A stretch of 45,994 nt of DNA. It comes from a virus. Positions within the stretch are counted from its first letter, which is position 1. Each line of letters starts with the position of its first letter. Under the pieces are notes generated by a model. The model was not told the origin of the DNA and did not search any database. It saw only the letters and a list, made by a program, of their open reading frames with translations. Location: positions 1 through 45,994 of the IMG/VR virus record IMGVR_UViG_3300022208_000001; one strand, 5' to 3'. Below, piece after piece: positions 6,786-45,994 of the stretch. Made by a program: the position numbers and the translations under genes.

Positions 6786-7234
6786 GATATAATTTATCAT
6801 ATAAAGAAAGCAAAATTAATGCATTTAAAAAACTTTCTGAATATTCAGAAAAAGGGCTAATAATTGATATATCATTAATAAAAAAGACACGATCTAATTT
6901 GCAAAATAGGGCTTTACATTTATATTTTATCATGTTGGCAGGCGAGTTTTTGAATATTGGTTACGATTTTAATTATACGAATCCATTCACAAATGAAATA
7001 ATATCAATCCCTTATACTGGTGATTTAGTAAAAGAATATATTTGGAGACCATTGCAAAATCAAATGTTTAAAATAGAAAGCACAACAAAATTAACAACCG
7101 AAATGATCAATTTAATTCTCGAAGTAATTAGTAATTGGTTAGCAGAAAAAGAGATATGTGTAAATTTCCCCAATAAATTTGATTTATTAATTAAACAATT
7201 AAACGAACATGAAAAAAACCAAAACTTTATCTAA
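6782..7234 (+). CDS. NinB-like recombination protein
   Basis: 150 residues with the NinB-type signature KKTRSNLQNRALHLYFIMLA after an N-terminal strand-rich segment, and a helical C-terminus. Lambda NinB (Orf) binds single-stranded DNA and SSB and substitutes for RecFOR functions. The neighbours RecT-like, MBL and NinG-like support the same pathway here. ATGA overlap with the MBL gene and a 26-nt overlap with the NinG-like gene show a compact operon. Confidence 0.7.
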   Translation: MRYNLSYKESKINAFKKLSEYSEKGLIIDISLIKKTRSNLQNRALHLYFIMLAGEFLNIGYDFNYTNPFTNEIISIPYTGDLVKEYIWRPLQNQMFKIESTTKLTTEMINLILEVISNWLAEKEICVNFPNKFDLLIKQLNEHEKNQNFI

Positions 7235-7601
7235 ACTTAAAGCCGAATTACAATTAATATTTAATCAATTTATACGATTAAGAGATAATGGGCAACCGTG
7301 TATTTCATGCAATCAATTTAAAGAAGCAAAACAAGCTGGGCATTATTATCCAGTCAAGGGATACGATGCTTTAAGATTTAATGAATTTAATGTAAATGGT
7401 GAGTGTCCTGGATGCAATTGTTTTGATGGAGGGCATTTGATTAATTATGGTGATAATTTAATAAAAAAAATAGGAAAAGAAAATTTTGCTCAATTAAAAA
7501 AAGATGCAAAAGCATACAAAATGAATGGATATAAATGGTCAAAAAGTGAATTATTAGAAAAAATAGGCTATTATAAAGAAAAAATTAAAGAACTAAATTA
7601 A
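7209..7601 (+). CDS. NinG-like (Rap) Holliday-junction nuclease candidate
   Basis: 130 residues. Basic N-terminal helix (KTKTLSKLKAELQLIFNQFI), CISC knuckle, AGHYYPVKGYDALRFNEFNV and ECPGCN with GGHLINYG follow in the order of the phage NinG/Rap family, an HNH-related zinc fold. Lambda Rap resolves recombination intermediates. The protein is a little shorter than lambda NinG but the zinc ligands and AGH/RF/N motifs are all visible. It ends the recombination operon. Confidence 0.82.
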   Translation: MKKTKTLSKLKAELQLIFNQFIRLRDNGQPCISCNQFKEAKQAGHYYPVKGYDALRFNEFNVNGECPGCNCFDGGHLINYGDNLIKKIGKENFAQLKKDAKAYKMNGYKWSKSELLEKIGYYKEKIKELN

Positions 7602-7682
7602 AATGGAAAATTACGAAAGCAATATTTCACGAATTAACAAAAAATGAAAATTCACAATTAATTTTAATAAAATAAAAAAGAA

Positions 7683-8021
7683 ATGATAGTAACAAAAGAG
7701 CATCAAGAAGCATTAATTGAGAAGTATATAAAAGACAAACACAATCAAGATGAATGCATTGGCTTTGTCGACGGCTTAAATACAGCATTAAACTTAGTTA
7801 AAAGTTTAACTATATCAAGCAATAGTAATTGGGTAGCATGCGCCGAGCGTGAGCCAGATAAAGAGGATACTTACTATATTTATCCGTACAAATATCACTA
7901 TACGGCAGAATATCACAAATACGGAAAGTGGGCAGGCAAATGGACAAATGATGATTCGTATGGCTATGAATATGAGGTATGTGTTGATTACTGGAAAGTT
8001 ATAGAGTCGCCAATGGTATAG
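7683..8021 (+). CDS. Hypothetical protein, DUF551-like C-terminal half
   Basis: 112 residues. The N-terminal half is helical (EHQEALIEKYIKDKH), and the second half has NWVACAEREPDKEDTYYIYP with many Trp and Tyr, resembling the DUF551-type beta domain found in phage accessory proteins (W, P and D spacing). No enzymatic motif is visible. It is the first gene after the recombination operon with its own short A-rich leader. Confidence 0.6.
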   Translation: MIVTKEHQEALIEKYIKDKHNQDECIGFVDGLNTALNLVKSLTISSNSNWVACAEREPDKEDTYYIYPYKYHYTAEYHKYGKWAGKWTNDDSYGYEYEVCVDYWKVIESPMV

Positions 8022-8039
8022 ATATATTATGGTTAAAAA

Positions 8040-8267
8040 ATGAAAAATAAAAAAGCAGAATATTTCAACTATCTGACAGCTTCCATGATTGAAATAAATG
8101 ATGGCTGTATAAAATGCATTTGGCTTGAATATTCAAACACAAATGAGTTTGATAATGAAGGCTGTGTTATGCTTAATAATGGAGATAATGCACTTATTGA
8201 GTTTGAAAATGGCAAAAAGATGATAATAACTAATAGTGAATGGTGTAGCCTTAAGTGGCTTCATTAA
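8040..8267 (+). CDS. Hypothetical small protein
   Basis: 75 residues, soluble and acidic, with three cysteines and Trp/Tyr-rich strands (CIKCIWLEYSNTNEF, KMIITNSEWCSLKWLH). It looks like a small beta domain. The family is unrecognised. It follows the preceding gene after 18 nt, and the phage-specific promoter at 8285-8340 lies after its stop. Confidence 0.55.
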   Translation: MKNKKAEYFNYLTASMIEINDGCIKCIWLEYSNTNEFDNEGCVMLNNGDNALIEFENGKKMIITNSEWCSLKWLH

Positions 8268-8284
8268 CTAGTATATTTAAATTA

Positions 8285-8340
8285 TATGATATATATCATA
8301 AAAAAAAGTGTTAAAAATTGCAACAAATGTTATATATTTA
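8285..8340 (+). promoter_or_regulatory. Operator-promoter, phage regulon site 2
   Basis: Palindrome TATGATATATATCATA (8285-8300), then A8, then AACAAATGTT (8322-8331) and the -7 box TATATTTA (8333-8340). The expected -33 position holds only TGTT, so the promoter looks activator-dependent. The first 32 nt are identical to those at 13393-13424. The palindrome centre is 47.5 bp from the end of the -7 box. It would drive the gene at 8365 with a leader of about 20 nt. Confidence 0.68.
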
Positions 8341-8364
8341 AGTATTCATTTTAAAAACAATATT

Positions 8365-8703
8365 ATGAGTGTAACCAGAAATATTCTTTTAAAACCGTTC
8401 ATTAAAATTCGAATTCAATACAAAAATTATGAACATGAAATAAAAACTTGTGGAGAACACGAAGAATTGAATGAAAATTTTTACCATTATATTGAAAATG
8501 ATGAAATATACTTATTTTCAAACACCAAAAGCAAAATTAATATTGATACAAATGAAAATGTATTTACAACATTAACGCCCGAATTAATGAATGCTATGAT
8601 TGCTGAATTTTCAGAAAAGCACAAAGAAGACATTCTATTATTAGAAGCAAAAATAAACTCAAAAGTAAAAGTTGAGTTTGGATTTGTATATGATGTTCGG
8701 TAA
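8365..8703 (+). CDS. Hypothetical protein under phage regulon promoter
   Basis: 112 residues from ATG 8365. A longer frame from GTG 8308 runs through the promoter and is rejected. It is soluble with mixed strands and a helical C-terminus (TLTPELMNAMIAEFSEKHKE). No family is recognised. Its control by the same operator-promoter arrangement as the nucleotidyltransferase gene at 13483 suggests the two are expressed together. Confidence 0.6.
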   Translation: MSVTRNILLKPFIKIRIQYKNYEHEIKTCGEHEELNENFYHYIENDEIYLFSNTKSKINIDTNENVFTTLTPELMNAMIAEFSEKHKEDILLLEAKINSKVKVEFGFVYDVR

Positions 8704-8795
8704 GGTTGCCGATAACGGTACTCAAATATGGTGTCGATTGCCCATAAAAATTAGTACAATGTTGATTAAATGTAAAACACTATAAAATACGAGCG

Positions 8796-9107
8796 ATGGA
8801 TTTAACAGAAAAAAGTTTACTTGTAGGAATATGTAATTGGCTGACTAAACAGCCTGAATACAGAAAACGTGAAATAACAGACCCGGAAAGTTTGTTTTAC
8901 CATGTTGCGCCAATTAAATATGCTGAATTTATAATGAGATTTGTGCGTGAGGAAGTCGAAAATTCGAAGCACGGCAATTGCACTATATTTGATGTTGTAG
9001 GGCATAGCGGACAGTTATGCCAATATGAACCAGACAATACAACAGCGATGAACTGTAAGCATTGCGGAGAACCTAAATGGGTGCATGAATGTTGTAAATT
9101 GGCATAA
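8796..9107 (+). CDS. Small zinc-binding candidate
   Basis: 103 residues. The C-terminus carries MNCKHCGEPKWVHECC, a possible Cys4 or Cys3His metal site, preceded by another HSGQLCQYEPD segment. The N-terminal part is helical (LTEKSLLVGICNWLTK). The pattern is of a small zinc-ribbon accessory protein. The function is not known. Confidence 0.55.
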   Translation: MDLTEKSLLVGICNWLTKQPEYRKREITDPESLFYHVAPIKYAEFIMRFVREEVENSKHGNCTIFDVVGHSGQLCQYEPDNTTAMNCKHCGEPKWVHECCKLA

Positions 9108-9158
9108 TTGCCTACAACTAGAATATATACATCATACATTAAATTAAAACTTAAAATC

Positions 9159-9524
9159 ATGAATCGACAATTAAAATTTAAAGCACTTTATAAAAATAAA
9201 CTGTATGATGTTTATGGAATTTCATTCCCTGATTTAATGGTTGATATTCCGCTAAAAAGATTTCCGTTTACTCAAAAAGTCAAAGCTGATGAATTAATTC
9301 AATTTATTGGCAAAACTGACGTAAATGGATGCGAAATATTTGAGGGTGACTATGATAATGATGGCAATTGCGTTGTCTGGTGTGATATATGTAACGCTTG
9401 GCAATTTGCCCAATTAGATGTACCGACAAAAGATATTTGTATCTCTTGTCATGCTTGTGACGGCAATTTCTTTTTTGATGAGCATATTCAAGAATTTGAA
9501 ACAGTTGGCAATCGGCTTCTGTAA
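9159..9524 (+). CDS. YopX-family protein
   Basis: 121 residues from ATG 9159, which follows the recurring leader element ending TTAAAATC. A longer frame to 9108 would run through that leader. ELIQFIGKTDVNGCEIFEGD is the YopX hallmark (QxTGxxDxxGxEIxEGD), and the protein ends in EFETVGNRLL as YopX proteins end in a VIGN-like motif. Between them lie two CDIC/CISC-type cysteine pairs, an unusual zinc-ribbon-like insert in place of the usual strand pair. YopX proteins are common in phages of many phyla and have no assigned function. Confidence 0.75.
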   Translation: MNRQLKFKALYKNKLYDVYGISFPDLMVDIPLKRFPFTQKVKADELIQFIGKTDVNGCEIFEGDYDNDGNCVVWCDICNAWQFAQLDVPTKDICISCHACDGNFFFDEHIQEFETVGNRLL

Positions 9525-12704: not shown

Positions 12705-13373
12705 ATGCATAAAGAATCAAAATTAAAAATGCAATGGTTTAAAGATAATTTTATAGAAAATAATAATATTAAAATACTTGATGTTGGGAGTTATGATGTG
12801 AATGGGAGTTATAGGGATATATTTAAAGAATCAGAATATCATGGGCTGGATATTGAAAAAGGGGAAAATGTAGATATAGTTTTACAAAATCCATACGATT
12901 GGTCAAGTATACAATCAAACTATTATGATGTTGTTATAAGCGGACAAGCATTAGAGCATGTTGAATTTTTCTGGATAACAATGAAAGAAATGTGTAGAGT
13001 TTTAAAAAAAGGCGGTTTAATTTGCATAATAGTTCCAAACAATTTTAAGGAACATAGATACCCTGTAGATTGTTACAGATTTTTTACAGATGGGTTAGTG
13101 GCGCTTGCAAAATTATACAAATTAAATATTCTACATTGTAGCATGAATCAGGGTGAAAAAAAATGGATTAATCATCTTGCGAAAGATGCAATATTAATAG
13201 CAAAAAAAACATATTCTGGAATTGAGGAAATAGTAATTAAAGATTATAAATTAATCGAACTGAATCATAATGAATTATGCAGACCATTCAAATATAAAAA
13301 ACAAAATAATAATTTTATAATTCGCAATATCAGAAGAGTATTACGAATTATTATTAAATTAATTGATTATTAA
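12705..13373 (+). CDS. Class I SAM-dependent methyltransferase
   Basis: 222 residues with a clear methyltransferase type 11 fold: motif I KILDVGSYDVNGS, acidic strand 2 YHGLDIEKG, motif IV YDVVISGQALEHV, then EMCRVLKKGGLICIIVP and EHRYPVDCYRFFTDG. The last block is common in methyltransferases from surface-polysaccharide gene clusters. It lacks the DPPY/NPPY motif of N6-adenine or N4-cytosine DNA methylases and the PC motif of C5 enzymes. A sugar or small-molecule substrate is therefore more likely than DNA. The C-terminus is basic (RNIRRVLRIIIKL) and may touch membranes. Confidence 0.8.
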   Translation: MHKESKLKMQWFKDNFIENNNIKILDVGSYDVNGSYRDIFKESEYHGLDIEKGENVDIVLQNPYDWSSIQSNYYDVVISGQALEHVEFFWITMKEMCRVLKKGGLICIIVPNNFKEHRYPVDCYRFFTDGLVALAKLYKLNILHCSMNQGEKKWINHLAKDAILIAKKTYSGIEEIVIKDYKLIELNHNELCRPFKYKKQNNNFIIRNIRRVLRIIIKLIDY

Positions 13374-18784: not shown

Positions 18785-18825
18785 ATAAAATAATTATATA
18801 TCATACTGAAAGGTACTTAGCTGAA

Positions 18826-18857
18826 TTTGACAATTCAATAAAAAAATATTATATTTG
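18826..18857 (+). promoter_or_regulatory. Consensus promoter with near-leaderless start
   Basis: TTTG 18826-18829, 20 nt, TATATTTG 18850-18857, a full match. Transcription should begin about 4 nt after the -7 box, that is at the ATG 18862 of the next gene, giving a leaderless message. It is placed to transcribe the small gene, ParB-like, radical SAM and both terminase genes. Confidence 0.78.
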
Positions 18858-18861
18858 CATT

Positions 18862-19044
18862 ATGGCATATATTTTACAATCAACACAAGATTTAACATTG
18901 CATTTTGTCGGGACAATACTTAAAAAGACAAATACTCCGGTTTTTGATACTGATATAAATCAAGCAAGAAGATTCTCGACGCATTTAGAAGCTAGTCAAG
19001 TTAAGGAATTAGTAATAAGACCGACGCAAATAATTGAAGTATGA
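18862..19044 (+). CDS. Small hypothetical protein, first gene of packaging operon
   Basis: 60 residues from ATG 18862. The longer frame from TTG 18781 is rejected because it contains the consensus promoter. The ORF reads MAYILQSTQDLTLHFVGTIL and onward, a beta-rich small domain with RFSTHLEASQVKELV near its end. Its stop overlaps the ParB-like start by 4 nt (ATGA). The family is unrecognised. Confidence 0.62.
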   Translation: MAYILQSTQDLTLHFVGTILKKTNTPVFDTDINQARRFSTHLEASQVKELVIRPTQIIEV

Positions 19045-19616
19045 AATTATCTAATTTAAAATTAAACCCAGATAACCCTCAAAAGTTCGACGATTTAACA
19101 TCTTTAGAAAATTCAATTAAGAATTTCCCTAAAATGATGAAATTAAGACCGATTATTTACGATCCTGAAAAAATGATTGTATTAGGGGGTAATAAAAGAT
19201 TGATTTGTTTACAAAATTTAGGCTATAAAGAAATACCGGATGAGTGGGTAAAAAGCGCAGACGAGTTAACAGAAGACGAAAAGAAAAGATTTGTTATTCA
19301 AGATAATATTCAAATCGGCGAGTGGGATATAGATTTGCTTGAAAATTGGGATTTTGATGAATTAAAAGATTGGGGATTAGGATTAGAAAAGAATGATTAT
19401 GATATTGAAATAATAGAGTCGGAAGATTCTGATAAGCGAGCAGGAACATTTACAACTAATATATCTAGCAATAAAACAGCCATGTATATTGGGAAAATGT
19501 ATGGAATTATAAATAAAGAATTTTATGAAAAAATAATTAACAAATATGATTTTATTGAAGGCAACGAAAATCATAATGGGATTATTTTTGAAGAGATTTT
19601 AAAAAAAATAATATGA
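19041..19616 (+). CDS. ParB/sulfiredoxin-fold protein (phage ParB-like)
   Basis: 191 residues. An N-terminal ParB-type domain: LKLNPDNPQKFDDLTSLENS, RPIIYDPEKMIVLGGNKRLI (GGNKR motif at residues 49-53), then LQNLGYKEIPDEW and a domain ending WDIDLLENWDFDELKDWGLG, which is the usual ParB-domain close in phage proteins. Phage ParB-fold proteins occur beside terminases and DNA-modifying enzymes and can have nuclease, NTPase or sensor roles. No partition partner is present, so plasmid-type segregation is unlikely. It overlaps the radical SAM gene by 4 nt. Confidence 0.8.
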   Translation: MKLSNLKLNPDNPQKFDDLTSLENSIKNFPKMMKLRPIIYDPEKMIVLGGNKRLICLQNLGYKEIPDEWVKSADELTEDEKKRFVIQDNIQIGEWDIDLLENWDFDELKDWGLGLEKNDYDIEIIESEDSDKRAGTFTTNISSNKTAMYIGKMYGIINKEFYEKIINKYDFIEGNENHNGIIFEEILKKII

Positions 19617-20806
19617 GAATATATTTTCATACAGAGAAGAATCAGGCTAGGTGTGGGACAATAATGTTATTAATATACTTATTAAAAAAACAAAATATAG
19701 AAATATTAGATAGCCCTAATAATGCAGATTTTGTATTTGTATCAGTATATGATGTATCGGCATTTAATATATTATATTCAGCATATAAGTTATATCACGG
19801 GAAAATCCCTATTGTTGCAGGAGGAGATACATGTAAATTAGATTTTGTATTAAATTATGCAGATTATGTAGTCAGGGGCGAAGCGTATGAATTTATAAAA
19901 AAATTAAGTAAATTAAAAAATAAGGAAGATATAATAAATATACCCAATGTATGGACAAAGAAAAAAAATGGAATAATAGATTATGAAATAAAATATAATG
20001 AGAATCCTATAATAAAAGCATCCCCAAAAGTATATTATTATTATGGCGGTAAAGGATGCCCTCAGAAATGTAAATTTTGTTTTTATTCTCATGTAAATGA
20101 ATATTCGCAAATCGACAAACAATTAGTTATAAACGCCTTAAAAAATATACCAAAATCTGGACGATTATATTTAACATCAGCATATTTTCCATATCCGGAA
20201 ATTGAAGATTGTTATTTAAAAAAATTAGGCATGATTGATTTAAAAAATCATCAATATTTAAAACGTAAATATCCTTCAAGATCATATAGAATGGGCATCG
20301 AATTTTTTACAGAAAATATGCGTAAAAAAATGGGAAAGCCAATATCAAATGAAAAAATAACAGAAACAATAAATAAATCTTTGTTATGGAATCATGAAAT
20401 AGTGATGTATTTTATGGCAGGATTGGAAAATCAAGATGATATGTTTGAATTCATAAATCAAGTCCCTTTTTATCAGGAAACTTACAGCCCACGTATTACA
20501 ATTCATTTTCAATATATAGATTTTAATGAAAAAACACCACTGCAAGGGTGCAATGTTATAAATAGGAGCGATTTTGATTATAAATTGTTTCAAAAAGAAT
20601 TAAATTTAAAAAATAGGAGGATCAGAGTAGGCGCCTTGAAATATAAAGCATATTCTACATATCGAACGATTTTGCAAAGGACAAAAGAAAAAGAAGAAAC
20701 AGAATTTATTCATTCATTAAGAAATGAAAAAAATAATGATGTTATGATTAATAAAATAGAAAAAAAATATCCATATTTATTAGGAAACAAAATATTGACT
20801 TGTTAA
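19613..20806 (+). CDS. Radical SAM enzyme with B12-binding-like N-terminal domain
   Basis: 397 residues. A Rossmann-like N-terminal domain (about 35-95) ends in PIVAGGDTCKLDF and YADYVVRGEAYEF, as in cobalamin-binding radical SAM proteins (GG...D.VV.GE), though the DxHxxG cobalamin ligand is not visible. The radical SAM core follows: GGKGCPQKCKFCFYSH, with the cluster ligands Cys149, Cys153 and Cys156 (CX3CX2C), RMGIEFFTENMRKKMGKPIS and VMYFMAGLEN. It would bind a 4Fe-4S cluster and SAM. The substrate is unknown. It sits between ParB-like and terminase genes with 3-4 nt junctions, which suggests DNA or packaging rather than metabolism. Confidence 0.88.
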   Translation: MRIYFHTEKNQARCGTIMLLIYLLKKQNIEILDSPNNADFVFVSVYDVSAFNILYSAYKLYHGKIPIVAGGDTCKLDFVLNYADYVVRGEAYEFIKKLSKLKNKEDIINIPNVWTKKKNGIIDYEIKYNENPIIKASPKVYYYYGGKGCPQKCKFCFYSHVNEYSQIDKQLVINALKNIPKSGRLYLTSAYFPYPEIEDCYLKKLGMIDLKNHQYLKRKYPSRSYRMGIEFFTENMRKKMGKPISNEKITETINKSLLWNHEIVMYFMAGLENQDDMFEFINQVPFYQETYSPRITIHFQYIDFNEKTPLQGCNVINRSDFDYKLFQKELNLKNRRIRVGALKYKAYSTYRTILQRTKEKEETEFIHSLRNEKNNDVMINKIEKKYPYLLGNKILTC

Positions 20807-20809
20807 AAT

Positions 20810-21196
20810 ATGCCACGTCCTAAAGCAAATATAGATTGGAAAATAGTTGATCAATTGCTTGAAGCTTCATGCGAAGGCACTGAAATTGCGGCATATATAG
20901 GCATAGATAATGATACACTTTATAAGAGATGTAAAACAGATAATAAAATGTGTTTTTCCGAATATTTACAACAAAAGAAGGCTAAAGGCGATTCGATGTT
21001 AAAAACTAAACAATTTAAAATTGCTATGGAAGGCGATAAAGCTATGTTGATTTGGTTAGGCAAACAAAGATTAGGGCAAAAGGATAGACACGATCATACA
21101 TCGAATGATAAAGAATTAAAAGTATTAACAATAACGGAACGAGAAGCAAGGATAAAAGAAATAAAAGAAAAATTAGGCATCAAGGAAGATGAATGA
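20810..21196 (+). CDS. Terminase small subunit
   Basis: 128 residues. N-terminal HTH (IDWKIVDQLLEASCEGTEIA followed by YIGIDNDTLYKRCKTD), then an oligomerisation helix (MLKTKQFKIAMEGDKAMLIW) and a charged tail. This order and the 8-nt overlap with the large subunit define a TerS that recognises phage DNA for packaging. It starts 3 nt after the radical SAM stop. Confidence 0.85.
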   Translation: MPRPKANIDWKIVDQLLEASCEGTEIAAYIGIDNDTLYKRCKTDNKMCFSEYLQQKKAKGDSMLKTKQFKIAMEGDKAMLIWLGKQRLGQKDRHDHTSNDKELKVLTITEREARIKEIKEKLGIKEDE

Positions 21197-22775
21197 TGAA
21201 TTAGAACTTTTAGAAGAGTTATATATATTAGAACGTCAAAAATTACGAGATAAAGCCAAAGAAGATATTTTGGCTTTTACTTTATATACAAAAGAAGATT
21301 ATATAGTAAATTGGCATCATGAATATTTATGTGATAAATTAAATGATTTTGTAAATGGCAAAATAAAAAGAATGATGGTGTTCATGGCACCGCAGCATGG
21401 CAAAAGCGAATTAACTTCTAGACGTTTACCAGCGTTTATGTTAGGTAAAAATCCAAATTTAAGAATAGCCCTTTGTGCTTACAATGCAACATTTGCAAGT
21501 AAATTTAATAGACAGGTGCAAAGAATAATGACAAATCAGTCATATTTGGATGTATTTCCTAAAACACAGTTAAATTCAAAAAATGTTGCAACGGATTCAA
21601 AAGGGGCATATCTTAGAAATTCAGAACAATTTGAAATAGTTGATAAAAATGGATCATTTATATCTGTGGGTGTTGGTGGTGGTATTACTGGGAATCCGGT
21701 AGATGTTGCATTAATTGACGATCCAATTAAGGGAGCAGAAGAAGCAGGTTCTCAAATATATAGAGAAAAACTTTGGGAATGGTATACATCGGAATTAGAA
21801 ACCAGACTTAATAATAGTAGTCAAATTTTAATAACACTAACTAGATGGAATATAGATGATTTAGCGGGACGAATATTAAAACATAGCGAAGATGAATATT
21901 CAAAAAAGTGGGAAATTGTAATATTCCCTAGAATTAAAGTTGATAATTCTAATCCAAATGATCCAAGAAAAGTAGGTGAAACATTATGGAAAGAAGTACA
22001 TTCTTTAGAATCCGCTTTAGAATCAAGGCAAAGAAATCCAGTAAAATTTGAAGCACTTCAACAGCAAAATCCTAAAGTTATGGAATTCGGTAATGAATTT
22101 TACAAAGGATTTGATGAAAGTAAGCATATAAAACGATGTAAATACAATCCTGATATTTCGTTACATATATCATTAGACGAAAATGTGAACCCTTATATAA
22201 CTGGAACGATATATCAGATAATAGATAAAACTATCTATCAAATAGATGAGATATGTCTGGCTCATCCAAAAAATACACTTAAAGAATTAGCTTTGGAATT
22301 CTCATTACGATATAGTGATCATACTACAGGAGTTTTTTTATATGGTGATGCAACAAGTAAAAAAGCAGATACTAAACTTGAAAAAGGGCAAAACTTTTTT
22401 ACTTTATTTTGTAAATATATTGCAGAATTTAATCCAGCTTTGAGAGTGCCAAATTCAAATCCATCAGTAGCAATGCGGGGTAATTTTATAAATGAAGTTT
22501 TTGAAAATAATCAAAGTGAGATATATTTTTACATTGACCCATCTTGTCATAATTCTATTGCAGATTTTAGATTTGTTAAAGAAGCGCCTGACGGCACTAA
22601 GTTTAAACAAATGGAAACAGATGTGAGAACTAAGGTAAGATATGAAAAATATGGTCATTGTTCAGATACTTTTGACTATTTAATTACTAAAGCTTTTGAA
22701 AGCGAATATAACAGATTTCAAAGAAAAGATATAGAAACAAAACCAATAATCGGATATAAAACTAAAAGATATTGA
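21189..22775 (+). CDS. Terminase large subunit
   Basis: 528 residues. The ATPase domain has a Walker A variant MVFMAPQHGKSELTSR (core residues 67-74), Walker B VDVALIDDPIKGA (Asp177-Asp178) and a coupling motif-like ILITLTRWNIDDLAG. The C-terminal RNase H-like nuclease shows acidic residues in ISLDENVNPY, FLYGDATSKK and HCSDTFDYL. Full length. It cleaves and translocates DNA into the prohead with TerS and the portal at 26841. An internal consensus promoter begins within its last codons. Confidence 0.93.
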   Translation: MNDELELLEELYILERQKLRDKAKEDILAFTLYTKEDYIVNWHHEYLCDKLNDFVNGKIKRMMVFMAPQHGKSELTSRRLPAFMLGKNPNLRIALCAYNATFASKFNRQVQRIMTNQSYLDVFPKTQLNSKNVATDSKGAYLRNSEQFEIVDKNGSFISVGVGGGITGNPVDVALIDDPIKGAEEAGSQIYREKLWEWYTSELETRLNNSSQILITLTRWNIDDLAGRILKHSEDEYSKKWEIVIFPRIKVDNSNPNDPRKVGETLWKEVHSLESALESRQRNPVKFEALQQQNPKVMEFGNEFYKGFDESKHIKRCKYNPDISLHISLDENVNPYITGTIYQIIDKTIYQIDEICLAHPKNTLKELALEFSLRYSDHTTGVFLYGDATSKKADTKLEKGQNFFTLFCKYIAEFNPALRVPNSNPSVAMRGNFINEVFENNQSEIYFYIDPSCHNSIADFRFVKEAPDGTKFKQMETDVRTKVRYEKYGHCSDTFDYLITKAFESEYNRFQRKDIETKPIIGYKTKRY

Positions 22776-43609: not shown

Positions 43610-45994
43610 AAAAATTAGTAACATTAATATTTATATTAAGTTGTTTTTTTGCAAAAAGTCAAGAATTTAATGAAATTTATTTGCGTGAAAAAGCAGTATT
43701 AAAAGACAGTACAGTAACATCATGGTTCTCTGATACATTGACAAACAAAGCGCATGTACGATATTATTTTGGGGCGACTTTTGTAGATAGTGCGGCAAAT
43801 TTGGCGGATACTACTTGGGTGCGTAATGAGATACAGGATAGTATTGATAATATCAATACAATAAAAATTATAACCGATACTATAATATCAACAGTTTTAA
43901 TTTTGAATGATAGTATATTAAAAGCAGCAACATCAGGAGATACGATATTAACAAAAGAAACAGCCGACGAATTATATATACAACTTGGCGGAGTATTAGG
44001 GAACGATAATGAGATATTAATGTCCGATGGCTCAGGAGGAACTAAGACAAGTACGAATTTAGAATTCGACGGCAAAACATTAATATTAAATAGTAATACA
44101 ACTGACAAAGGCGTATACATTGGCGATTCAGCAGGATATGGAGTTAATACAGCAAGTGATGGTTGGAATGTAGCTATAGGATATAGCGCAGGTCATTCAA
44201 TGTATGAAGATTACAATAATGTATTGATCGGATATAAAACAGGATATTTAAATAATGGAGGGTGGCAAAATACATTTGTAGGTACCAGAGCAGGGCAAAA
44301 TAATATAACCGGAGACAATAACTCATTTTTTGGCAATCAGGCTGGCTATAGCAACGCTGCAAGTAATAATTCTTTTTTTGGATTTCAAGCAGGATATACA
44401 AATTCAACAGGGGAGCGTAATGTATTAATAGGAACCGAAGCGGGATATTTAAATAGCACTGGTTCAAATAATACATTTATAGGAGATGGTGCGGGTAGAG
44501 CAAATACGAACTCGTATAATGTATTTGTAGGGTATCAGGCAGGTTATGCAAATACAACAGGCACACGCAATGCTTATATTGGTTATAATAGTATGAGTGC
44601 AAATTCGACAGGGTCGTATAATACTGCTTTTGGGTATTTAACTGGAAATAGCAATTTAACAGGTTCGTATAATATATTTTTAGGATATAACGCTGGTTAT
44701 AATGAAACTGGCTCAAATATGTTATATATAGAAAATACAGATGCGAATAAATATAATGCATTAATTTGGGGTGATTTTGCAAATGATTCAATACGATTAA
44801 ACGCCTCGGTTAGAGTAAGAGACAGTTTATTTAATGCAAGATTCAGAGATGATGAAATTATTGTTCATTCTGTATCAGATTTACCGGCTGCAGTTGCAGG
44901 AAGAATTACATTATTGGCATGTAAAGATTATGTATTTGATTGTGATACAGTGTTTTTAACAGACACATTAGTTTTTGGAGACGATACAAAAATAAATTTA
45001 GCGATAATCAAAACATCAAAACCTATAATTGTTGATGAGGGGGCGGACATATATCAATCAGATATAATATATACCGGTACAGACAGTTTATTTATATCCG
45101 CAGATTTTGGATATAAAATTATAAGATTAGATAGAGTTGATATAGAAAGTGCCGGCAAAGTATTTGGCATTTCGACGTCAAGCGCTTATGGTACATTAAT
45201 CATGAATAGTACCTCTATTTATAATGCAACGATATTAGGCACAATAATAAATGCAGGTGCTTTAATTTCTAATTTTCGGGCGACAGGTTTTGATAATGGA
45301 TTCCAATTTATTGATAATAGTCCTATTTCGATTACAATAAGTTCATTTTTAGAAGGGAATAATACAGCTAATTGTATATTTTTAGATTTTTCAGGCACAC
45401 AATCAAGTATAGATATTTCATTTACAGATGCAACGCCTAAATTAAACGAACATATATTTAATTTTGATGCTGCAATAACTGCCGAAAGCGTGAAGGTAAT
45501 AGGCGGAGGTGCAATACTGACAGAATCTGGTGTATCTTTTGCAAATATATTTGAATCAGGGAGTTTGACTCAAGAAGATAACGGAATAAATTTTGATAAT
45601 TACACAAATCTTGCTAGCTCAACAGCATTGCAATATTCGAGTTTTACGGGCGGCACATCAACTACAACGATTACACTAGATAATACACCGTATAAAATCG
45701 TTGCAACTTGGGTTGAAGGATTGACTGAACGATTTAGTTTTAATGCAAACGGGCGAATAACTTATATAAGCGAAGAAACACGCCGGTTTCACGTAGGAGG
45801 GATGGCAACTATTGACCCTGCCTCGGCAGCAGCAGCAAGTTTCAGAATCCTAGTTGCAAAAAACGGAACTGTAATCCGTCCTGGCAATGCTACAAATATA
45901 GCAGGAGGAGTAACGGAAAGCGTAAATGTTGGGGTTATGACACAATTAGCAAAAGATGATTATATTGAATTATATATTGAAAGGATAGCGGGTG
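43606..45994 (+). CDS. Large tail fibre with signal peptide and YadA-head-like repeats
   Basis: 796 residues in this window, 812 after joining to 1-177. N-terminus MKKLVTLIFILSCFFAKSQ is a signal peptide (cleavage before Gln19, or lipoprotein processing at Cys13), unusual for a phage fibre. Residues about 188-370 carry 11 units of the type xxxGxxAGYxNxTGxxN (for example NNTFIGDGAGRANTNS, NVFVGYQAGYANTTGTRN), the left-handed beta-roll repeat of YadA-like heads. A mixed beta region and a jelly-roll end (ERFSFNANGRITYISEETRR) follow. No stop lies in the frame, so it crosses the contig end. Confidence 0.85.
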   Translation, partial: MKKLVTLIFILSCFFAKSQEFNEIYLREKAVLKDSTVTSWFSDTLTNKAHVRYYFGATFVDSAANLADTTWVRNEIQDSIDNINTIKIITDTIISTVLILNDSILKAATSGDTILTKETADELYIQLGGVLGNDNEILMSDGSGGTKTSTNLEFDGKTLILNSNTTDKGVYIGDSAGYGVNTASDGWNVAIGYSAGHSMYEDYNNVLIGYKTGYLNNGGWQNTFVGTRAGQNNITGDNNSFFGNQAGYSNAASNNSFFGFQAGYTNSTGERNVLIGTEAGYLNSTGSNNTFIGDGAGRANTNSYNVFVGYQAGYANTTGTRNAYIGYNSMSANSTGSYNTAFGYLTGNSNLTGSYNIFLGYNAGYNETGSNMLYIENTDANKYNALIWGDFANDSIRLNASVRVRDSLFNARFRDDEIIVHSVSDLPAAVAGRITLLACKDYVFDCDTVFLTDTLVFGDDTKINLAIIKTSKPIIVDEGADIYQSDIIYTGTDSLFISADFGYKIIRLDRVDIESAGKVFGISTSSAYGTLIMNSTSIYNATILGTIINAGALISNFRATGFDNGFQFIDNSPISITISSFLEGNNTANCIFLDFSGTQSSIDISFTDATPKLNEHIFNFDAAITAESVKVIGGGAILTESGVSFANIFESGSLTQEDNGINFDNYTNLASSTALQYSSFTGGTSTTTITLDNTPYKIVATWVEGLTERFSFNANGRITYISEETRRFHVGGMATIDPASAAAASFRILVAKNGTVIRPGNATNIAGGVTESVNVGVMTQLAKDDYIELYIERIAG
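45868..45994. repeat. Terminal redundancy, right copy
   Basis: Identical to 1-127; see that entry. Annotate the circular sequence without it to avoid double-counting. Confidence 0.93.

Follow-up and report, generated by a model that had tools for sequence, protein, structure and literature searches.

A ParB-like protein paired with a radical SAM enzyme at viral terminase genes, a candidate DNA-modification module

The IMG/VR virus record IMGVR_UViG_3300022208_000001, analyzed over its whole length of 45,994 nucleotides (hereafter the window), encodes a ParB-like protein and a radical S-adenosylmethionine (rSAM) enzyme immediately ahead of its terminase genes. The same ParB-rSAM module is present at the terminase genes of many unrelated uncultured viruses, and we consider it almost certainly real. 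Because the pair sits in the slot that ParB-linked DNA methyltransferases take in other phages, it points to an undescribed route by which viral DNA is altered before packing. We hold, with moderate confidence, that this is a ParB-associated rSAM DNA-modification module that is exchanged horizontally, DNA being its presumed substrate.

Recurrence of the gene pair among viruses

With the window enzyme alone as query, no close homologue was found in IMG/VR, INPHARED, PLSDB, or the PDB. A search for close homologues was thus insufficient, and the family was found with motif patterns and profiles. A motif scan recovered L081 and L094/L097, two distant relatives that both lie beside ParB and terminase genes. 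A profile built from L081, L094/L097, and L104 and a second motif scan yielded a larger family, and a third scan completed the subset with the signature KCxFCxYTWxR. The family comprises 55 loci in IMG/VR, which form 37 clusters at <85% identity, and has no counterpart in PHROG, NCBIfam, or INPHARED. In a hidden Markov model search with the window left out of the model, the window enzyme scored 75.9 bits, compared with 51.2 bits for the best true non-family protein. A contig-edge fragment, L231, scored 80.5 bits with the same model and was set aside in this comparison; it is probably a family member itself.

A ParB open reading frame (ORF) lies directly upstream on the same strand in 26 of the 32 rSAM clusters with usable upstream DNA. 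In contrast, ParB was found within 1 kb of none of the 151 other viral rSAM ORFs returned by the same patterns. The two genes commonly overlap by 1-40 nucleotides, and by exactly 4 nucleotides in the window, L153, L175, L207, L236, L238, L247, and L251. Sequence distances among the ParB proteins correlate with those among the rSAM enzymes (Mantel r = 0.50, with none of 5000 permutations as high). The ParB matches rest on profiles made from the family's own partners, and those of L081 and L116 were checked against PHROG 620 and 498. At L254 (4375-6807), the family rSAM gene lies behind two overlapping ParB-like ORFs.

The BFVD entry A0A8S5QA32 ("Fe-S oxidoreductase," Siphoviridae sp. ctdcr45) matches in both fold and sequence (25% identity, E = 9.5e-27) and is a probable family member. 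It has been named by homology only, and the database name assigns no function. No paper on a phage ParB-rSAM module was found in the open-access literature, subscription papers being outside the scope of the search. Restriction of the family to viruses was partly tested, with the cellular profile sampling covering one phylum. The YTW-type signature had no match in the genome collection. The sole match there to CPxxCxFCFYxH (L105) has no rSAM ORF and was put down to chance, and a profile search of 395 whole genomes of the same phylum gave only partial matches to rSAM proteins of ∼870 residues, which resemble TIGR03960. A separate and abundant viral rSAM family of about 270 residues (L030, L032, L038, and about 25 more loci) has the signature RGCPxxCxFCFVPxREG and no ParB neighbor.

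Locus layout and exchange at the terminase genes

In the window the ParB-like gene, the rSAM gene, terS, and terL follow one another on the same strand. The features of the locus are as follows.

18826..18857, + strand: Bacteroidetes-type promoter, TTTG-N20-TATATTTG (pattern TTTG/TAnnTTTG), 5 nucleotides before the ATG of the 60-residue ORF
18863..19044, + strand: 60-residue ORF preceding parB, common to relatives without the pair
19041..19616, + strand: ParB/Srx-fold protein, 191 residues, identified by PHROG matches
19613..20806, + strand: rSAM enzyme, 397 residues, with an N-terminal B12-binding-like domain and a CX3CX2C core (C149/C153/C156)
20810..21196, + strand: terminase small subunit (TerS), with an N-terminal part acquired together with the pair and an ancestral C-terminal tail
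21189..22775, + strand: terminase large subunit (TerL), PHROG 38/Terminase_6N
19042..21082, + strand: replacement block (parB, rSAM, and the 5' part of terS), over which homology to L005 is interrupted

The parB and rSAM genes overlap by 4 nucleotides (ATGA), a 3-nucleotide gap separates rSAM from terS, and terS and terL overlap by 8 nucleotides. The initial annotation of this DNA had given the same ORF positions, overlaps, cysteines, and promoter. It had also called the genes translationally coupled, a coupling deduced from the overlaps. Chance alone would give 3.7 matches to the promoter pattern in the window, where 8 occur, but for the promoter at 18826 the relative L005 has kept both boxes. 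A direct terminal repeat of 127 bp (1-127 and 45868-45994) indicates that the 46-kb record is probably a complete phage genome, assembled as a circle. The phage is a myovirus whose portal and head genes are Mu-like and which has a tail sheath. Far from the pair, positions 12705-13370 encode a class I SAM-dependent methyltransferase-like protein that is not a recognizable DNA methyltransferase and is the likely source of a Pfam Methyltransf_11 match.

The window TerL matches PHROG 38 (8e-61), and six viral contigs have a TerL 74-83% identical to it. ParB and rSAM are absent upstream of terS in all of these relatives that have sequence there. One of them, L005, is 79% identical to the window over 18823-19041, which spans the promoter and the 60-residue ORF. 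Homology reaches as far as 19041, where parB begins, and resumes at 21083 inside terS. The stretch between these points is therefore a single replacement block before the ancestral terS tail and terL, by which parB, rSAM, and the 5' portion of terS (to about 21082) were acquired together. The TerS proteins of the window and of L002-L007 are mosaic, with differing N-terminal halves and a common C-terminal tail. L005 itself (6834-9389) encodes a TerL of 851 residues with an intein-like insertion after "PQHGK."

Across the family, a TerL identified by PHROG lies within about 2.5 kb of 25 of the 37 clusters and belongs to four lineages (PHROG 2, 9, 15, and 38). TerS is found near two further clusters and a portal gene near one. 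A survey for a conserved ParB-like/rSAM/terminase order, proposed in the initial annotation, is thus strongly positive. Mapped on the rSAM tree, TerL lineage switches at least 8 times, compared with a minimum of 3, and the sister loci L116 and L130 have TerL proteins of different lineages on different sides of the module. The module therefore passes between unrelated phages, each time settling at the terminase genes anew.

The window ParB fold is recognized by PHROG 17622, 498, and 8071 (E = 3e-16 to 1e-14); no Pfam match to it was obtained in a Pfam scan of the window proteins. The C-terminal CPKCGF/CPxCG tail found in 22 of the 24 family ParB partners compared is absent from the window protein and from L224, and so is a frequent rather than a defining feature of the family.

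Most of the proteins nearest to the L081 ParB in isolated phages carry a DNA methyltransferase annotation. Bacteroides phage BS-TP3 supplies the isolated-phage protein that best matches the window ParB; there, ParB is followed by a 4-nucleotide overlap, a ParB_N+methyltransferase protein, a 3-nucleotide gap, TerS, and TerL; the two junctions are identical to those of the window. In Psychrobacter phage pOW20-A, which has the INPHARED TerS nearest to that of the window, a ParB_N+N6_N4_Mtase fusion immediately precedes TerS. In L008, a more distant TerL relative, a ParB-type N terminus detected by profile match is fused to N6_N4_Mtase in the same place. These phages and streptococcal prophages with ParB_N+DNA methyltransferase genes resemble the window in having a related ParB domain directly before terS-terL. 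The difference is that the catalytic part in the window is an rSAM enzyme on a separate polypeptide rather than a class I methyltransferase. A methylase/ParB gene is also carried by phage WO (PMC9203015).

Both kinds of enzyme occur together in some members of the family. L094/L097 have the gene order ParB, C5-cytosine methylase, rSAM, TerS, TerL, and L161 has a separate ParB_N+N6_N4_Mtase gene in addition to the ParB-rSAM pair. The initial description of the pair as a "minimal" system therefore does not hold strictly. On the gene orders, the best reading is a ParB-linked cassette for DNA modification with an exchangeable catalytic part, whose place the rSAM enzyme takes.

Related gene clusters were seen elsewhere. 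At L069 (10079-11531) a ParB with a CPKCGY tail overlaps an L094-like C5-cytosine methylase, with no rSAM gene beside it. L085 (4806-7612) contains a different, 700-residue B12-type rSAM gene with a 1-nucleotide overlap to a probable C5-cytosine methylase gene, a second adjacency of rSAM and cytosine methylase. In Bacillus phage 031MP004 (L267, 3962-7252), ParB, a PAPS-reductase-domain protein, a methyltransferase, and a second ParB are encoded close together and look like another ParB-linked modification cluster.

The radical SAM enzyme

At the base composition of the window (29% G+C) a 397-codon frame free of stop codons has a chance probability of about 2e-17, and the rSAM gene is therefore maintained. 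The enzyme matches Pfam Radical_SAM below threshold (1.8e-4) and the NCBIfam B12-binding/rSAM model TIGR04013 at 1.7e-7 over residues 26-158, although this second match, at 30 bits, is far under the cut-off of 251. The cluster cysteines C149, C153, and C156 are invariant in all 20 aligned members. This CX3CX2C motif, together with rSAM structures as the top fold matches, places the family in the radical SAM superfamily.

An AlphaFold2 model of a central member, L153, had a predicted local distance difference test score (pLDDT) of 87.7 and a predicted template modeling score (pTM) of 0.87. Its best PDB match was MgmA (9ccb; E = 5.5e-10, TM-score 0.47-0.50, about 14% identity), followed by MiaB, AprD4, and OxsB. 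The fold matches of the window enzyme's own model point in the same direction. The TIGR04013 match and the structural matches to MgmA, OxsB, and AprD4 indicate an N-terminal B12-binding (Rossmann-like) domain. The CX3CX2C core and this B12-binding-like domain are shared with the class B rSAM C-methylases (MgmA; TIGR04013, TIGR03960). Unlike those enzymes, the family falls under the NCBIfam cut-offs, lacks the DxHxxG motif, is phage-borne, and is paired with ParB.

Proposed function and its alternatives

The observed starting point is that ParB and the rSAM enzyme are encoded together beside packaging genes. In the mechanism that we propose, ParB would act as an adaptor that binds replicated phage DNA, the enzyme, or both, and would bring the enzyme to the DNA; the ParB domain fused to methyltransferases may target them in the same way. 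The enzyme would reach the DNA during packaging or shortly ahead of it and make a radical-based change to nucleobases. Our leading guess for this change is methylcobalamin-dependent C-methylation, since MgmA, the top structural match, is a C-methylase. The resulting mark could protect the DNA from restriction or let the terminase discriminate between phage and host DNA. The initial annotation had already suggested DNA modification, and this reading gains support from the finding that the ParB family otherwise accompanies DNA methyltransferases in the same slot, with DNA the deduced substrate. Some phage thymidine hypermodification systems likewise include an rSAM enzyme, which there acts in DNA modification. 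As initially annotated, the window has no classical hypermodification gene: a Pfam scan of 67 window proteins (ORFs below 80 residues excluded) detected no thymidylate-synthase-like protein or dUMP hydroxymethylase, no 5-hydroxymethyldeoxyuridine DNA kinase, and no modifying transferase. A bolder form of the proposal is a virus-restricted class of rSAM enzymes acting on polymeric DNA, in which a ParB-fold adaptor targets a new carbon-level base modification that the terminase reads as a self mark and, in some viruses, the product of the C5-cytosine methylase is the substrate. This form is speculative, and we think it unlikely.

Several observations weigh against a DNA-modification module, in the family or in the window copy. 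ParB was not detected just upstream in L104, L125, L187, L190, L233, and L260; at L190 a ParB ORF is present and overlaps a mis-extended rSAM frame. The paired cluster L234/L254 has no terminase gene beside it in the available DNA. The DxHxxG cobalamin motif is absent from all 20 aligned members. Some cobalamin-dependent rSAM enzymes also lack this motif, and since the predicted N-terminal fold fits a B12-binding domain, cobalamin use by the family is likely yet unproven. The remaining points concern the window. The CPKCGF tail, a zinc knuckle that most family ParB proteins carry, is missing from its ParB, and the AlphaFold2 model of its enzyme is poorer (pLDDT 65.7). The enzyme is the most divergent member of the family (about 20% identity, with an end branch of 5.6 on the rSAM tree), and near-invariant residues are changed at R90, E92, E144, D230, G231, and R357. 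Its activity may therefore differ from that of the family.

The first alternative, packaging control, has some plausibility but in our view a low probability. The enzyme would mark or gate the packaging region or modify TerS or TerL, and a matching TerS would recognize the phage's own DNA, a scheme compatible with DNA modification. Terminase adjacency across lineages fits it, as does the fact that a single block brought in ParB, rSAM, and the N-terminal part of TerS. However, TerS N termini differ among relatives without the pair too (L004/L007 versus L002/L005), so the joint exchange may reflect only the position of recombination, and the module is found with many unrelated TerS types.

It is also unlikely that the pair is accessory cargo for counter-defense or superinfection exclusion, with an enzyme acting on a nucleotide, a cofactor, or a protein and the terminase genes serving as a tolerated, late-expressed insertion site. 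The patchy distribution and the absence from near relatives are consistent with cargo. Most B12-type rSAM enzymes have small molecules or proteins as substrates, and MgmA, the top PDB match, methylates a protein. Nevertheless, retention of a ParB partner found elsewhere with DNA methyltransferases is not expected of cargo, and neither is repeated arrival at the terminase genes of four lineages; the C5-cytosine methylase between ParB and rSAM in L094 also speaks against cargo.

That the module is real and the window copy is decaying or changed in activity would account for the very long branch, the lost near-invariant residues, the shorter protein, and the ParB without a zinc-knuckle tail. We regard this as improbable, as the 397-codon frame is intact despite the low G+C content, the 4- and 3-nucleotide junctions are preserved, and the enzyme retains every cluster cysteine and 19 of the 29 near-invariant positions. 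A phage-borne RNA-modifying methylthiotransferase of the MiaB/RimO/MtaB type is very improbable: the two-domain fold is similar, the next-best matches include MiaB and MtaB structures, and L081 and L104 weakly match TIGR00089, but matches to the B12-type models TIGR04013 and TIGR03960 are mostly stronger, the ParB and terminase linkage would be left unexplained, and the reading was rejected since the family has no conserved N-terminal cysteine triplet for an auxiliary cluster, its N-terminal cysteines varying in number and position.

rSAM enzymes that act on polymeric DNA are very rare, the standard example being spore photoproduct lyase. If the DNA-modification reading is true, ParB-linked DNA modification would extend from simple methylation to radical chemistry. 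The gene pair is a concrete place to seek new DNA bases, for which L153, L175, and L207 are better-behaved members, and the role of ParB-fold proteins beside phage DNA-modification genes would become a testable question.

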